From positions 372,001 to 436,000 of the forward strand of contig PJFC01000001.1 in assembly GCA_003574885.1 (NCBI GenBank): a stretch of DNA of 64,000 nucleotides, in the 5' to 3' direction. The stretch comes from Geobacter sp. GTDB taxonomy: Bacteria > Desulfobacterota > Desulfuromonadia > Geobacterales > Geobacteraceae. Positions within the stretch are counted from its first letter, which is position 1. Each line of letters starts with the position of its first letter. The notes beneath the pieces were generated by a model. It worked only from the letters and a program-made list of their open reading frames with translations, was not told where the DNA came from and made no database searches. Made by a program: the position numbers and the translations under genes. Of this stretch, positions 16,728-22,944 are shown in pieces.

Positions 16728-17450
16728 ATGAAACGTCTCGTATCCATGATGCTCTGTCTGACGCTGTTTTCCGGCTGTGCCACCTACAAGACCCAGTACG
16801 TCTCGTTCAAGCCGCCCGAAGCCTATCCCAACTTTAAGGTGGTCGCGGGGGCTCCCATGGCTGCGGAAGCCTACGCAGACCAGTCAGTGGCTGCAGAAGC
16901 CTTCGGTTTCGACATCCGGGGGGCGGGACTTCTTCCTGTCCAGCTGGTGATCGACAACAAGAGCGGTCAGACCATGGAGATCGTTTCAGGTCAGACATTC
17001 CTCGTGGATGACAGCAACCGCTACTGGAATGTGATGGAAAACCGGGCCGCCGTCGAGCGCGTGGAACAGTACACCGCTTCGGGGGCCGTGGCGGCAGGTG
17101 CCGGTAAAAGCGCGATGTTCGGGGCGGTTGCCGGTACCATTCTGGGTGCGGCCATCGGCATCGTGTCCGGCCGGAACGTGGGAGAGGCAATCGGAAAGGG
17201 TGCGGTCATCGGTGCTGCGGGTGGTGCGGTCATCGGCGGAGTCCAGGGTAGCGCAGACCGGGGACAGGATTACCGCATAGCCGATGATATCCGGGAAAAG
17301 GGGCTTGAGGGGAAGGTCATTCCCAATGCCTACCTGGCTAACGGGTTCATCTTCTTCCCCGGCGAGGCCCAGTCCGCCAAGGAACTGCGGATGCAGGTGC
17401 GGGAAAAGGAGAGTGGCGATACCTACACGGTCGTTCTGAAGCTTAAATAG
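16728..17450 (+). CDS. lipoprotein with glycine-zipper segment
   Basis: 240 residues. A signal peptide with lipobox LFSGC is followed by an N-terminal domain of unknown type. Then comes a Gly/Ala-rich stretch at about 120-175 (GAVAGTILGAAIGIVSG and AVIGAAGGAVIGGVQG), typical of glycine-zipper outer-membrane-associated proteins, and a C-terminal beta-rich domain with FIFFPGEAQSAKELRM. Probably an envelope lipoprotein; exact role unknown. It is followed by a strong two-way terminator shared with dctA. Confidence 0.8.
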   Translation: MKRLVSMMLCLTLFSGCATYKTQYVSFKPPEAYPNFKVVAGAPMAAEAYADQSVAAEAFGFDIRGAGLLPVQLVIDNKSGQTMEIVSGQTFLVDDSNRYWNVMENRAAVERVEQYTASGAVAAGAGKSAMFGAVAGTILGAAIGIVSGRNVGEAIGKGAVIGAAGGAVIGGVQGSADRGQDYRIADDIREKGLEGKVIPNAYLANGFIFFPGEAQSAKELRMQVREKESGDTYTVVLKLK

Positions 17451-17493
17451 CGGCCATCCTGAAACTATTCAGAATTCACTACTCCCCATAAAC

Positions 17494-17534
17494 AAAGAAA
17501 AGAGGCGCCATCTTCGGCGCCTCTTTTCTTTTTA
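17494..17534. terminator. bidirectional rho-independent terminator
   Basis: A perfect 16-base stem AAAGAAAAGAGGCGCC/GGCGCCTCTTTTCTTT (17494-17509 and 17516-17531) with a six-base loop and T tracts on both strands lies between two convergent genes. Confidence 0.93.
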
Positions 17535-17569
17535 ACAACCACAACCATGGTACTCCAGCACAATTACGG

Positions 17570-18895
17570 CTATTCCGGCACAGTCTCCAGCTCAGGCTCA
17601 ACAAGCGACAAGGCTGCTTCGCTGAGGGCGGACGGCTCGCCGTTTCCATTCAGCACCCTCTTCATCCGTTCGACATCAAGTTCGTTCTCCCACTTGGATA
17701 CAACCACCGTTGCCACGCCGTTGCCGATCAGGTTGGTAATGGCCCGGGCTTCGGACATGAAGCGGTCGATGCCGAGGATCAGCGCCAGGCCGGCCACCGG
17801 GATGGTAGGGATAGCGGCGAAGGTAGCGGCAAGAGTGACGAACCCGCTCCCCGTGACGCCGGCAGCTCCCTTGGAGGTGAGGAGGAGGACTCCGAGAATG
17901 GTGAGGGTCTGGGTCATGGTCAGGGGGGTGTTGGTTGCCTGGGCGACGAAGACGGCTGCCATGGTAAGATAGATGGAGGTGCCGTCCAGGTTGAAAGAGT
18001 AGCCGGTGGGGATAACCAGGCCTACCACCGATTTCGTGCAGCCGAGATTTTCCAGCTTGGTCATCATCCGCGGCAGGGCCGACTCGGAGGAAGAGGTGCC
18101 GAGGACGATGAGGAGTTCATCGCTGATGTAGCGGAGAAACTTGAAGATGCTGAAACCGCAGAGACGGGCGATGGTGCCGAGGACCACGAAAACGAAGAGG
18201 ATGCAGGTGAGGTAGAAGCTTCCCATGAGCATCCCCAGCTTTGAGAGGGAGCCGACGCCGAACTTGCCGATGGTAAAGGCCATGGCGCCGAACGCTCCGA
18301 TGGGGGCCAGCTTCATGATGATATTGACGATACCGAAAAAGACATGGGAAACGTTTTCGATCAGCCTGTGCACCGGTTTCCCTTTTTCTTTCAGAGCGGA
18401 GAGGGCGAAACCGAAGAGGAGCGCGAAAAGGAGCACCTGGAGAATATCTCCCTTGGCAAAGGCGTCAACCACCGAAGACGGGATGATACTCATGAGGAAA
18501 TCCGACATCGTGTGCGCCTTGGCCTGGGTGGTGTAGGCGGTAAGCGCCTTGGTGTCCAGTTTGGTCACGTCGGCATTGAAGCCTGCACCGGGCTGGATCA
18601 CGGTGATGATAAAAAGGCCGATGGCAAGGGCGATAGAGGTGATAACTTCAAAGTAGAGGAGCGCTTTTCCCCCCACCCTGCCGACCTTCTTCATGTCCTC
18701 CATGCCGGCGATGCCGGTGACAACGGTACAGAAGATGACCGGGGTGATGATCATCTTGATAAGCTTGATAAAACCGTCACCCAGCGGCTTCATGGCAACA
18801 CCTGTATCCGGGTAGTAGTACCCGAGGAGGATACCGCAGGCGATAGCAGTCAGCACCTGGGCATACAGATGCTGGTAGAAACGTTTCTTTTGCAT
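17570..18895 (-). CDS. dctA: C4-dicarboxylate:cation symporter (DctA/GltP family)
   Basis: 441 residues of the dicarboxylate/amino acid:cation symporter (SDF) family in the inner membrane. The helical-hairpin signatures [11 protein letters not shown] and [19 protein letters not shown] are present, and the second is very close to DctA, importer of succinate, fumarate and malate. A glutamate/aspartate specificity (GltP) cannot be excluded by eye. It sits next to a sensor kinase and sigma-54 activator that probably control it. The upstream region carries a sigma-54 promoter and three palindromes. Confidence 0.9.
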
Positions 18896-18966
18896 GAAAC
18901 TTTCCTTTCCTAAGTGAAATAATGCAACCTGCGCCTCTTGCAGATGTCAATGTGTAAAGCTATATC

Positions 18967-18982
18967 AGCAAGAGGGATACCA
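18967..18982 (-). promoter_or_regulatory. candidate sigma-54 promoter of dctA
   Basis: On the minus strand TGGTATCCCTCTTGCT has the invariant GG and GC ten bases apart and matches the consensus TGGCACG-N4-TTGCW at nine of the twelve fixed positions. The predicted start is about 60 bases upstream of the dctA ATG. The activator encoded next door has the sigma-54 contact loop. Confidence 0.65.
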
Positions 18983-19059
18983 AACCGTATACGGCTGATA
19001 ACTATGCATATCAATTGAAATAACTCTGTTTTATTGGTGTCCGGAGGAGGGGAAAGGGT

Positions 19060-19161
19060 ATAACCTTTGTCATGGGGGGTGGTCCGTCGCGGAGATAGAA
19101 TGAGGCTGTTGCTGGAGTGATAAGGGGTATAACAAAGGTTATGGAATATAACCAAGGTTAT
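19060..19161. promoter_or_regulatory. three palindromic activator sites upstream of dctA
   Basis: ATAACAAAGGTTAT (19129-19142) and ATAACCAAGGTTAT (19148-19161) are inverted repeats 19 bases apart. ATAACCTTTGTCAT (19060-19073) is the same element in the other orientation with one mismatch to the first. They lie roughly 80-180 bases upstream of the sigma-54 promoter, the usual distance for an enhancer bound by an NtrC-type activator. Confidence 0.7.
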
Positions 19162-19186
19162 CCCCCTTGGGTCATGGAATGGAATT

Positions 19187-20596
19187 TCAGGTTTCCCTGC
19201 GGGAAAGCCTTTTGCTCAGGGCTGGCTGGGAGATACCGAGCAGCCGGGCAGCGATGGTCTGGTTGCCGTCGGCTCGATCCATCGCCTCGGCAATCAGCTG
19301 CTCCACCGTGTCGGTGATGGTTGGCAGCTTCTCCATCCCCCGGAAGATATTTTCCCCCGGCAGCCGCTGTGTTCCTTCGCCGCTTGTGGCGGCCGAACCG
19401 ATGGCAGCGATGAAGCTCTCCAGAGAGAGGACCCGGTCACGGTGGACGCTTACCGCGTCGTAAATCATGGACCTGAGTTCGCGTATGTTGCCGGGGAAGC
19501 TGTAGCTGGCCAGGAGCTGGAACAGCTCCCGGGGCGGGGTCGGTTTCTTTTTCCCCAACTCCTGAGCGGCTTTCTGGAGGAAATGATCCACCAGGAGAGG
19601 GATGTCGCCGAGCCGCTCCCTGAGCGGCGGAATTTTGATGCGATGGGTGCGGAGACGGTAGTAGAGGTCGCGGCGAAACTGACCGGCGGCCCCCTTGGCG
19701 GAGAGGTTCTGGTGGGTTGCGACAATGATTCGGGCGGAGAGTCGCTTGGGTCGGTCGCTCCCGAGGGGGAAGTACTCCCCCTCCTGCAGCAGGCGGAGCA
19801 GCTTCATCTGGGAGGCAATGGAGAGGTCCCCGATCTCGTCGAGGAAAAGGGTCCCCCCGGCCGCTTCCTCCACCATCCCCCGCCGGGCCTGGTCGGCGCC
19901 GGTGAAGGAGCCGCGCAGATGGCCGAAAAGGGTGTCTGCAAAGACATTGTCGTCCAGGCCGGCCACGTTGACGGAAACCAACGGCCCTCCCTTTCCGCTC
20001 AGCCGGTGAACCGCCCGGGCAACCAGTTCCTTCCCCACGCCGCTGTCGCCGGTGATGAGGAGCGGCTGGGGGCTCTGGGCCACCGCTTCAATATAGGCGA
20101 ATATGGCGTGCATGGCCGGATCGGCGGTGACAATATCGCTGAACGCGGTCGGGTGGCGCAGCTCGCGGGAGAGGAGCCTGTCGGACATGACCCGGTTCTC
20201 CCGCTCCAGCTGGTGCATCCGGATGGCGCGCACAATCCCCTGCACCAGCCGGTCTTCTTCCACCGTCTTGACAAAATAATCGAAGGCCCCCAGCTTCATG
20301 CAGCGGACCGCCGTCTCCAACTGGTTCATGCCGCTGACGACGATGGTGGTCACCTCCGGGTGCCGCTCGGCAATGGTGGCCAGGAGTTCTTCGCCGGCAA
20401 GGTGGGGCATGGTCAGGTCGAGGAGCACCAGCCCCACCTCTCCGTCCGCCAGGATATCCATGACGCCGCGGCTGTCGGTACAGGTGGCGATGTTGGTAAT
20501 CCCCGCCCTGGCCAGGATGAGACTGACCGAGCGGAGCCAGGCCTGCTCGTCATCCACCAGTAGAATCTTGAAATCCGGGGAGGGGGAATGGGTCAT
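19187..20596 (-). CDS. sigma-54-dependent response regulator (DctD/NtrC type)
   Basis: 469 residues: a receiver domain (phospho-acceptor D60 in VLLDLTMP), an AAA+ core with Walker A GDSGVGKE at 183-190, the sigma-54 contact loop as GSFTGA at 229-234 (the usual form is GAFTGA), Walker B TLFLDEIGD near 250, and a C-terminal Fis-type helix-turn-helix (QTIAARLLGISQPALSKRL). Its start overlaps the sensor kinase stop by 4 bases. Context suggests it activates dctA through the palindromes at 19060-19161. Confidence 0.93.
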   Translation of the reverse strand: MTHSPSPDFKILLVDDEQAWLRSVSLILARAGITNIATCTDSRGVMDILADGEVGLVLLDLTMPHLAGEELLATIAERHPEVTTIVVSGMNQLETAVRCMKLGAFDYFVKTVEEDRLVQGIVRAIRMHQLERENRVMSDRLLSRELRHPTAFSDIVTADPAMHAIFAYIEAVAQSPQPLLITGDSGVGKELVARAVHRLSGKGGPLVSVNVAGLDDNVFADTLFGHLRGSFTGADQARRGMVEEAAGGTLFLDEIGDLSIASQMKLLRLLQEGEYFPLGSDRPKRLSARIIVATHQNLSAKGAAGQFRRDLYYRLRTHRIKIPPLRERLGDIPLLVDHFLQKAAQELGKKKPTPPRELFQLLASYSFPGNIRELRSMIYDAVSVHRDRVLSLESFIAAIGSAATSGEGTQRLPGENIFRGMEKLPTITDTVEQLIAEAMDRADGNQTIAARLLGISQPALSKRLSRRET

Positions 20597-22356
20597 GGCG
20601 GAATAACCTCCTTCATGGCGGGGAGAACCAGCTTGACCGTGGTTCCACCTTCCGGCGGCGAACTGAAGATGATCTCGCCGCCATGTTCCTGGGCGATGCC
20701 GGCGGAGATGGAGAGCCCCAGGCCGGTACCGCCGCTTTCCCTCTTGGTGGTGAAGAACGGGTCGGTCAGATGGGAGAAATGCTCCGGCGGTATGCCGATT
20801 CCCTCGTCCCTGACTGTAAGGGTAACGTTGCCGCCGGCTTGCTCGTAGGCGGTTGACAGGGTGATGGCCCGGTCGTTTGCCGGCAGTGACTGGCAGGCAT
20901 TGATAAGCAGATTGATGACCACCTGCTCGATCCGCTGGGAATTGCCGCAGACGCGGGGAAGCCGCTCGCCGTACGTCGCGGCGAACCGGGTAGTGGCCTT
21001 GCGCAGGGACGGTTCCACCAGCCGCACTGCCGCCTGTACCACCTGGTTGACGTCGAACGGCTCCATGGCTGCCACCGTATCGGGGCGGGCAAAATCCTTC
21101 AGGTCTTCCACGATACGTTTGATACGCTGGGCGGCGTGAACCATCTCCTCCAGCATCTGTGGTATCTCGTCACGCATCCTGGCATAGCTGACCCCGCCGA
21201 GGAGGAAATCTCCCTCCCGCTGGTAGAGCTCTTCCAGTTCCTGCAGGGCGTCGGCGTACACATCCCGCAATATGGGCAGATTGAGCAGCAGCAGGCCGTT
21301 AGGATTGTTTATCTCGTGGGCCACTCCTGAGACAAGGATGCCGAGGGAAGCCATCTTGTCCGCCTGTACCAGTCTGTCCTGGTGGCGGCGCAACTCCTCC
21401 AGGGCAAGCTTGCGTTCTGCAACCTCCCGGGCCAGCTCGTCGGTACGGAGGGCAACCCGTCGCTGCAGGGTGCGCGACCAGACCATGCTGGCTGTGAGCC
21501 CCAGGATCAGCGGGAGCAGCACCATGGCGCCATACTTCAGTATCCGTTCCCGGGGAAAGGTGGGGGGCTCATTCACCCCGAGCCACTTGTCGTAAATGGC
21601 CTGGTACTGGCCGGACTGCTTGACGATGGCCAGCCCCTCGCTGAAGCGAGCCAGGAGCTCGGCGTCCCCCTTGTTCACCGCGTAACAGTACTTTTGGGCG
21701 GAAACGCTCCTGGCCACCTGCACCACGTTGGTCAGGTGCAGTTCGCGTATCAGGTACATGCCGGGGAGGCTGGCGACCACGCAGTAGTCGTACTTGCCCG
21801 AGGCGAGCAGCCGGAGAGCGTCGGCCGGTGTGCCGGTAAGAATCAGATCCTTGCCGAAACCGAGGCTCATCAGCATGTCGTACATGATGCCGTCGCGGAA
21901 AACGATGACTTTCTTCCCCCGCAGTTCCTCCAGAGAGGAGATGGCCGGGGTTCCCTTCCGGGCGAAGACCGCGTGATGAACGATGGTGTGGGGGGGGCTG
22001 AAGTCGAGTTTTTTTGCCCGCTCCTCCGACCAGGATATCCCCTGGAGGATGTTGATGCTGCCGTCATTCAAACCCTGACGCATCTCCGACCAGCTGCCGA
22101 AGCGGAAAGTTACCCTCATCCCCATCACATCGGCAATGGCTCGCGTGAGGTCGACATTGTAGCCGGCGGGACGGCCATCCATGTCGATGAATTCGTACGG
22201 AGGATAATCCCGGTCGCCGCCGACCACTATGGTGGTGTGCGAATCGATGCCGGGCTCGTCCGCGCCCTCGGCATGCAGCCGCGTGGTGGGCAGGCAGAGG
22301 GCCAGGAAGAGCAGCGGGAAAATCAGCAAAGGTTTTACGCGCAGCAATAAACCCAT
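20593..22356 (-). CDS. sensor histidine kinase with periplasmic solute-binding (SBP_bac_3) sensor
   Basis: 587 residues. A signal/anchor segment is followed by a complete type-3 periplasmic binding domain at about 40-265 (DYPPYEFIDMDGRPAGYNVDL, then LQGISWSEERAKKLDFS), a membrane helix near 275-295, a coiled linker, H-box GVAHEINNPNG near 346 and an HATPase with GTGLGLSIS. It should sense a small ligand, probably an organic or amino acid, in the periplasm and phosphorylate the overlapping regulator. Classical DctB uses a Cache-type sensor instead, so this is a different solution. Confidence 0.93.
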   Translation of the reverse strand: MGLLLRVKPLLIFPLLFLALCLPTTRLHAEGADEPGIDSHTTIVVGGDRDYPPYEFIDMDGRPAGYNVDLTRAIADVMGMRVTFRFGSWSEMRQGLNDGSINILQGISWSEERAKKLDFSPPHTIVHHAVFARKGTPAISSLEELRGKKVIVFRDGIMYDMLMSLGFGKDLILTGTPADALRLLASGKYDYCVVASLPGMYLIRELHLTNVVQVARSVSAQKYCYAVNKGDAELLARFSEGLAIVKQSGQYQAIYDKWLGVNEPPTFPRERILKYGAMVLLPLILGLTASMVWSRTLQRRVALRTDELAREVAERKLALEELRRHQDRLVQADKMASLGILVSGVAHEINNPNGLLLLNLPILRDVYADALQELEELYQREGDFLLGGVSYARMRDEIPQMLEEMVHAAQRIKRIVEDLKDFARPDTVAAMEPFDVNQVVQAAVRLVEPSLRKATTRFAATYGERLPRVCGNSQRIEQVVINLLINACQSLPANDRAITLSTAYEQAGGNVTLTVRDEGIGIPPEHFSHLTDPFFTTKRESGGTGLGLSISAGIAQEHGGEIIFSSPPEGGTTVKLVLPAMKEVIPP

Positions 22357-22487
22357 GATACCAGTTGTAATACACTTTGCCGGGTAAATGCAACATCGGC
22401 TATGCGGGGCTGTGCAATGAACGACTGGTGACAGTCCTGATTTTAAAAGGAGGTGTGTGCTGAAATGGAAAAGATGATGAGATTCGA

Positions 22488-22562
22488 GGGGTTACGGAGT
22501 ATGCGGTATGGAGGAAAAGACATGGGAAAGAAAGAGGGTCACAGCTGTTAAGCCGTAACCCC
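22488..22562. repeat. ten-base inverted repeat beside tRNA-Pro
   Basis: GGGGTTACGG (22488-22497) is mirrored by CCGTAACCCC (22553-22562) across 55 bases. A smaller hairpin on the minus strand (within 22536-22561) is followed by a pyrimidine tract and may serve as the tRNA terminator. The outer repeat has no assigned role. Confidence 0.4.
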
Positions 22563-22572
22563 TTGAAAATTA

Positions 22573-22649
22573 TGGTCGGGATGACTGGATTTGAACCAGC
22601 GGCCCCCTGCTCCCGAAGCAGGTGCGCTACCAGGCTGCGCTACATCCCG
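22573..22649 (-). tRNA. tRNA-Pro (CGG)
   Basis: The minus strand folds into a full cloverleaf: acceptor CGGGATG/CATCCCG, D arm with AGCGCAGCCTGGTAGCGC, anticodon stem CCTGC/GCAGG around loop TTCGGGA (anticodon CGG, reading CCG), T arm with GGTTCAAATCC, discriminator A, and an encoded CCA. It is 77 bases including CCA. Confidence 0.97.
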
Positions 22650-22660
22650 ACGAGGGCATA

Positions 22661-22689
22661 TATATACCTTGATGGTCGTTGTTTGTCAA
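22661..22689 (-). promoter_or_regulatory. promoter of tRNA-Pro
   Basis: On the minus strand TTGACA (22689-22684) and TATATA (22666-22661) are separated by exactly 17 bases, placing the start a few bases upstream of the tRNA 5' end at 22649. Confidence 0.85.
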
Positions 22690-22944
22690 CAGGTTAACTG
22701 GCACTTTTGCCAAAAAACCGTTGTCAGATTCCCCCCGAAGTGCTACAAAATTAGATTCAGTAAAACGTCACGGCATTTCATGGTGAGGGTGAATGACTTA
22801 CCGCAACCATGCACGAATACCATAAAAAGCGGGAGAGGTGGCGTACTCCGGCGAAAGCTGGTCAAGGCCGATACGCTGCCGGAGATTGCTGACGTCACCG
22901 TTGACAGGTGAACAGATGCCCTTGAAGTGGGAGGAATACAGTTT

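Follow-up and report, generated by a model that had tools for sequence, protein, structure and literature searches.

A candidate DctBD-like sensor-activator-transporter module at dctA in Geobacter and the one-base change in operator spacer that may separate it from its paralogues

Three genes on the minus strand of a 64-kb stretch of Geobacter sp. DNA (here called the window), encoding a sensor kinase, a sigma-54 response regulator, and the transporter DctA, very probably make up a DctBD-like sensor-activator-transporter module, one predicted to be kept apart from its paralogues by operator half-site sequence and a 1-bp change in spacer. If true, this would be a compact natural case of duplicated enhancer-binding proteins avoiding cross-activation, with separation resting on half-sites of the same sequence, a single base of spacing, and a small number of residues, and with the 4-bp (N4) and 5-bp (N5) spacer states and their targets both present in one genome. 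For Geobacter-like bacteria, it would also provide dctA and dcuB-type genes with candidate activators and binding sites.

The kinase gene (20593 to 22356, minus strand) encodes a histidine kinase with a periplasmic SBP_bac_3 domain (Pfam PF00497, residues 43 to 260, 118.9 bits) and HisKA (PF00512) and HATPase (PF02518) domains. No second sensor domain was reported by Pfam, and the solved structure nearest to the sensor domain is PDB 3h7m (1.6e-104), which is listed simply as "Sensor protein." A sequence-only reading of the window had described a self-contained module at dctA; the activator, sites, promoter, and dctA do stand together, but this kinase had been overlooked. The DctD-like regulator (19187 to 20596, minus strand) comprises receiver (PF00072), AAA+ (PF00158), and Fis-type helix-turn-helix (HTH; PF02954) domains. 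Its Asp60 is invariant across 32 aligned relatives, and its sigma-54 contact loop (L1) reads GSFTGA (residues 229 to 234; 19895 to 19912). Judged by sequence, it has the features of a group I (NtrC-type) enhancer-binding protein (EBP): a receiver with a candidate phospho-acceptor Asp, a GAFTGA-type loop, a Walker motif, and a Fis HTH. The L1 loop varies within the family, with GSFTGA in the dctA-linked regulator of the window, GAFTGA in the family consensus, and GAYTGA in a dcuB-linked paralogue. For the DNA-binding part (19190 to 19318, minus strand), an AlphaFold2 model (mean pLDDT 82.9 overall and 82 to 86 for blocks 431 to 460) predicts a helix at residues 427 to 441 and HTH helices at 446 to 453 and 457 to 468. 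The product of dctA (17570 to 18895, minus strand; PF00375) was assigned to the C4-dicarboxylate symporter family NCBIfam NF002461 at 713.6 bits against a cut-off of 513, while the GltP model scored under its own cut-off.

The activator gene and dctA are separated by a gap of 291 bp (18896 to 19186), which contains a predicted -24/-12 promoter and three ATAAC-N4-GTTAT dyads, a layout that had been read correctly from the window and that recurs at near-constant distances in relatives. The promoter, TGGTATCCCTCTTGCT (18982 to 18967, minus strand; GG-N10-GC), lies 71 nt before the dctA ATG at 18895. By itself, the GG-N10-GC pattern is not significant (29 matches with at most two mismatches in the window versus 29.3 expected). 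The call is credible because of position and conservation rather than the pattern alone: at a score of at least 16.5, in a weighted scheme made for this analysis, such a site precedes dctA in the window and in all 34 dctA-linked relatives scanned. The leader with its ribosome-binding site, AGGAAAGGAAAG, spans 18896 to 18966 (minus strand), and transcription probably starts near 18956. Upstream, UAS1 (ATAACCAAGGTTAT, 19148 to 19161) and UAS2 (ATAACAAAGGTTAT, 19129 to 19142) are exact dyads 19 bp apart (18 to 19 bp in relatives), and this tandem is conserved in relatives. The window had been credited with three copies of ATAACmAAGGTTAT; three dyads are indeed there, but just two are perfect, the third, UAS3 (ATAACCTTTGTCAT, 19060 to 19073), having one mismatch and fitting that motif best on the minus strand. 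Although half-site and spacer are conserved, the central mAAG varies among relatives, and the motif is therefore better written ATAAC-N4-GTTAT. Dinucleotide shuffling of this gap, repeated 20,000 times, never produced two exact dyads, nor three dyads within one mismatch. These observations support the interpretation of the locus as a putative sigma-54 enhancer-promoter arrangement.

A genome-wide motif search had been suggested as a check. The tandem ATAAC-N4 pair occurs at one place only in 3.47 Mb of the genome; single dyads were not enriched (63 places with at most one mismatch versus 88 for the reversed control). Four other exact single ATAAC-N4-GTTAT dyads occur in the genome, none of them in a tandem pair. 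A broad regulon was rejected, since single dyads are rarer than the reversed control and the contexts examined hold weak promoter-like matches only (about 200 bp from the dyad in locus L091 and about 290 bp in L090). Autoregulation was also rejected, as the region reaching 544 bp upstream from the start of the kinase gene contains no dyad at one mismatch or fewer and a single dyad at two mismatches.

We propose that the SBP_bac_3 domain of the kinase would sense a periplasmic ligand, most likely a C4-dicarboxylate, and that the kinase would phosphorylate Asp60 of the regulator. The regulator would bind the three dyads, which lie upstream of the -24 element, the tandem pair starting at about 180 bp and the third dyad at about 92 bp, and would open the dctA sigma-54 promoter through looping and ATP hydrolysis, inducing the transporter gene. 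Paralogous regulators most likely recognise their own targets through the sequence of the half-site and the 1-bp spacer change, with the spacer set by dimer geometry (helix 427 to 441) and the half-site by the HTH (446 to 468).

SBP_bac_3 domains usually bind amino acids, and the presence of such a sensor could mean that the ligand is an amino acid, for instance glutamate or aspartate, rather than a dicarboxylate; one N4 tandem (locus L184) also lies near amino-acid type ABC transporter genes. We consider this improbable. In amino-acid binding proteins, an Arg lies in the binding site and an Asp grips the alpha-amino group. The kinase keeps the Arg (Arg113) and has Ala195 at the position that aligns with the Asp of the amino-acid binding protein, and across 95 related kinase hits the Arg is kept in 94 (the position is not covered in the other) and the Asp position is Ala in all 95. 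Also against amino-acid sensing, the transporter is DctA and not GltP by curated cut-offs, and relatives adjoin DcuB, DctA, and TRAP genes. The Arg/Ala pattern fits a ligand that has no amino group, for example a dicarboxylate, without proving it.

With the DctB-DctD-dctA circuit of Rhizobium and Vibrio, as described in the accessible part of one account, the module shares a two-component sigma-54 activator, more than one upstream site, and a dctA target (PMC11077940). Features of the rhizobial circuit found here include the DctA symporter target (NF002461) and a receiver-AAA+-Fis sigma-54 activator, and the -24/-12 promoter with multiple sites upstream of dctA is matched at the level of predicted sites. 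Tandem DctD sites are known in Rhizobium, where, according to the same part of that account, DctD sites read TGTGCG-N5-CCGCACA (PMC11077940), whereas the operator here is ATAAC-N4-GTTAT; the rhizobial sequence had no match within three mismatches in 18896 to 19186. Unlike in the Rhizobium/Vibrio circuit, the kinase, regulator, and dctA genes are co-directional here, with the sites after the regulator gene. The periplasmic sensor of DctB is PDC/PAS-like, whereas the sensor here is SBP_bac_3. The module would thus work like DctBD while departing from it in two tested features, operator and sensor.

Searching with the regulator yielded 148 relatives, drawn from named genomes and from metagenome bins, and the best 80 were kept as protein-first loci. 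In 34 of these best 80 (of 148), the regulator gene is followed by a dctA with identity above 60%. Tandem ATAAC-N4-GTTAT pairs, with at most one mismatch in each dyad, precede dctA in the window and in 26 of the 34 dctA-linked relatives. TTAAC-type sites were found in seven (Geomonas and like), including one locus (L071) with one exact dyad and a second dyad of 5-bp spacer, and the remaining locus, from Anaeromyxobacter (L075), has neither the ATAAC-N4 tandem nor TTAAC-type sites. An open dyad search (5-base half-sites, spacers of 0 to 11) recovered the same dyad, in register or displaced by one base, in one of the three best-ranked families at almost every N4 and N5 locus; unrelated chance families tie with or beat it at a few loci, including L027, L028, and L040. 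The operator was unassigned in 26 of the 80 protein-first loci.

The same patterns were then counted across 141 genomes of the order, covering 29 genera, with reversed patterns as the control. Tandem ATAAC-N4 pairs were detected in 46 genomes (50 places, 14 genera), ATAAC-N5 pairs in 26 genomes (26 places, 8 genera), and TTAAC-N4 pairs in 17 genomes (17 places, 3 genera), with the reversed control at zero for each. Within about 1.5 kb of the 50 N4 places, the gene was dctA in 40, dcuB in 5, and other in 5 (an unannotated ORF follows at three of these, ABC-transporter genes lie close to one, and one is at a contig end). For N5, the gene was dcuB at 25 of the 26 places and other at one; for TTAAC, dctA at 16 of 17, with the last at a contig end. 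Fisher's test of dctA or dcuB against N4 or N5 gave 2e-14, uncorrected for kinship. Some N5-linked dcuB genes are distant, those at L160, L164, and L166 being just 46% and that at L147 47% identical to the query dcuB. Of the 93 pattern places, 83 have a related regulator upstream in the same orientation (67 within 1.5 kb and 16 at about 2.0 to 7.4 kb), and for the other 10 none was found within the stretch examined; where the regulator was within 1.5 kb and the transporter recognised, the two genes shared a strand in 63 of 63 cases. N4 and N5 pairs co-occur in 8 genomes, TTAAC and N5 in 8, and N4 and TTAAC in 1.

Distances between operator and promoter are nearly constant. Taking as promoter the best match 165 to 204 bp away, which bounds the range obtainable, UAS1 lies 177 to 184 bp from the -24 element at 47 of 50 N4, 25 of 26 N5, and 17 of 17 TTAAC places. 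A third dyad with at most one mismatch stands between tandem pair and promoter at 20 of 50 N4 places, being missing in the other 30, and at 25 of 26 N5 places, with reversed controls at zero. For TTAAC places, the corresponding figures are 5 of 17 versus 1 of 17 reversed, and 17 versus 4 when two mismatches are allowed. Third dyads at one mismatch or fewer lie 89 to 94 bp upstream of the -24 element in 20 of 20 N4, 24 of 25 N5, and 5 of 5 TTAAC cases. This site layout points to a fixed looping geometry.

The genome that carries the window also contains a paralogous module that the sequence-only reading did not see: a second kinase-regulator pair precedes dcuB, with a regulator gene at C1:160698-162098 whose product is 68% identical to the dctA-linked regulator, and with three sites, each ATAAC-N5-GTTAT, so that half-site sequence is the same and the spacer is 5 bp. 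Exactly one tandem N4 place (dctA) and one tandem N5 place (dcuB) occur in this genome. Among relatives, porin-linked paralogues carry ATAGC-N5-GCTAT, present as one exact copy at three of their four loci and with one mismatch at the remaining locus, as well as a tandem pair that deviates by two mismatches.

A quick tree of 102 regulators, from which the C-terminal columns were excluded and in which 36 of the 99 inner branches are unresolved, requires one spacer change, two half-site changes (among the 97 rows that have an operator), and three changes of linked transporter (among the 91 rows whose label is confirmed); the outcome was the same with confirmed labels only. The N5-dcuB clade has SH-aLRT support of 96, and the five N4-dcuB regulators form a separate clade outside it (SH-aLRT 100). 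By these counts, operator type follows the regulator and not the transported gene. In the five genomes, all of one genus, where the pattern search located N4-dcuB places, dctA was not found in four and a 39% homologue was present in one, two of these genomes being less than 75% complete.

Residues 432, 433, and 448 of the regulator vary with spacer, and 445, 447, and 457 with the TTAAC half-site. Glu or Asp occupies position 432 in 46 of 48 ATAAC-N4, 17 of 17 TTAAC-N4, 0 of 28 N5, and 0 of 4 porin-linked N5 regulators (pooled, 63 of 65 N4-spacing versus 0 of 32 N5-spacing), and Phe or Tyr occupies position 433 in 31 of 32 N5-spacing versus 0 of 65 N4-spacing regulators. Both positions lie in the helix at 427 to 441 of the AlphaFold2 model, and the first helix of Fis-type proteins is the dimer helix. 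Ile448 versus Leu was rejected as the sole spacer determinant, with two Leu, two Gln, and one Met among the 48 ATAAC-N4 regulators; position 461 was rejected as a half-site marker, with Asn in 17 of 17 TTAAC but also in 9 of 28 N5 regulators. Since each operator switch occurred about once on the tree, these residue-operator pairings are clade markers and not independent events, and statistics cannot pick out individual residues; Glu/Asp432 and Phe/Tyr433 are candidates only for the spacer determinants. Other columns distinguish N4 from N5 regulators just as cleanly, among them columns 30, 112, and 134 of the receiver domain.

The half-site residues bear on whether the dyads belong to this regulator at all. 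Palindromes are possible sites for many dimeric regulators, and binding of the dyads by the EBP is predicted from sequence, so that another protein, a repressor or a nucleoid protein, might bind them while sigma-70 drives dctA. Such an arrangement seems very remote: the dyads lie at a near-fixed distance from the -24/-12 element and beside the EBP gene; the change from ATAAC to TTAAC tracks EBP positions in or next to the HTH (447 and 457 changed in 17 of 17 TTAAC versus 0 of 80 other regulators, and 445 nearly so); and a sigma-70 scan of 17400 to 22800 gave two sites versus 2.0 in shuffles, no excess.

We lean slightly toward the view that paralogous sigma-54 activators of this order are insulated by a two-part code: half-site letters (ATAAC, TTAAC, ATAGC, and perhaps ATGAC/GTGAC), which the HTH would recognise, and a spacer of 4 or 5 bp, which would be read through dimer geometry. 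A single change from 4 to 5 bp would have founded the DcuB/porin branch, after which the operator would have followed the regulator even where the transporter differs. Less likely, although a serious contender, is that this is an ordinary DctBD-like circuit in which N4 and N5 arose by neutral lineage drift and the regulators tolerate either spacer, with cross-talk between modules or separation at the kinase-receiver step only. The one spacer change on the tree is what drift after duplication would give, and the receiver columns separate the clades as well as position 432 or 433 does. Operator-based insulation is not universal, because one genome (G121) keeps two ATAAC-N4 modules, each with a different regulator; another genome (G120) also has two N4 places. 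Moreover, while 16 of the 26 N5 genomes also carry an exact N4 or TTAAC pair, 10 carry neither, and no need for separation from such a module is therefore seen there. However, a spacer-tolerant regulator would be expected to have mixed sites, and the near purity of the clades counts against tolerance: no exact N5 dyad was found in 29 of 30 N4 loci and no exact N4 dyad in 14 of 14 N5 loci. Tandem pairs with N3 or N6 spacers were also absent from all 141 genomes.

Earlier work on Geobacter covers parts of this picture. In Geobacter sulfurreducens, dcuB is needed for fumarate respiration and has an RpoN promoter shown by primer extension, which is a -24/-12 promoter like the one here on the kind of gene that is the paralogue's target; the accessible part of that account does not identify the activator and its sites, unlike the candidate ones here (PMC2725144). 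In Geobacter bemidjiensis, pairs of substrate-binding sensor kinases and response regulators adjoin dcuB, dctA, and a porin, with kinase and regulator genes 5' of dctA and dcuB as here and paralogous regulators 65 to 69% identical versus 68% here; that account, in its accessible part, concerns genes only, to which operator, spacer, and specificity analysis is added here (PMC2996986). These operators, or a spacer-based separation of such paralogues, were not found described in the accessible text of the openly licensed literature, and as far as that literature shows, the operators, the three-site layout, and the spacer and half-site split among paralogues are apparently new.

Several loci differ from the common arrangement. 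In two genomes (G035, locus L233, G035:C8:24300-40000; G041, locus L257, G041:C2:62000-78000), one regulator precedes a pair of dctA genes whose identities to the query are 81% and 56%, and each of these genes has its own tandem N4 pair in front of it. At L148/L245 (G023:C33:194925), an N5 tandem and a -24/-12 type promoter precede a gene for a Cache-domain protein, not dcuB, and a related regulator was not found within 16 kb. An N4 tandem and a -24/-12 type promoter precede similar-looking ORFs of more than 420 aa, cut by the locus end, at L119:1753-3030, L122:1762-3030, and L185:1771-3030; none has a Pfam match, and those of L119 and L122 also have no NCBIfam match. Two loci that have neither dctA nor dcuB (L081 and L082) encode regulators with an altered recognition helix and carry dyad-like sites, ATGAC-N4-GTCAT in L081 and GTGAC-N4-GTCAC in L082, perhaps representing further specificity; a DctP-type TRAP gene follows in L082. 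Leaders also vary in length. Some relatives have a small ORF (about 65 aa or more) between dctA and its sigma-54 promoter: the copies at L010:6787-6984 and L013:6754-6951 match DUF551 (PF04448), and those in the leaders of L020, L026, L027, L030, and L046 resemble them by eye. In the window, where the -24 element starts only 87 nt from dctA, this ORF is absent; L022, L033, L038, and L049 have long leaders that lack the full ORF.
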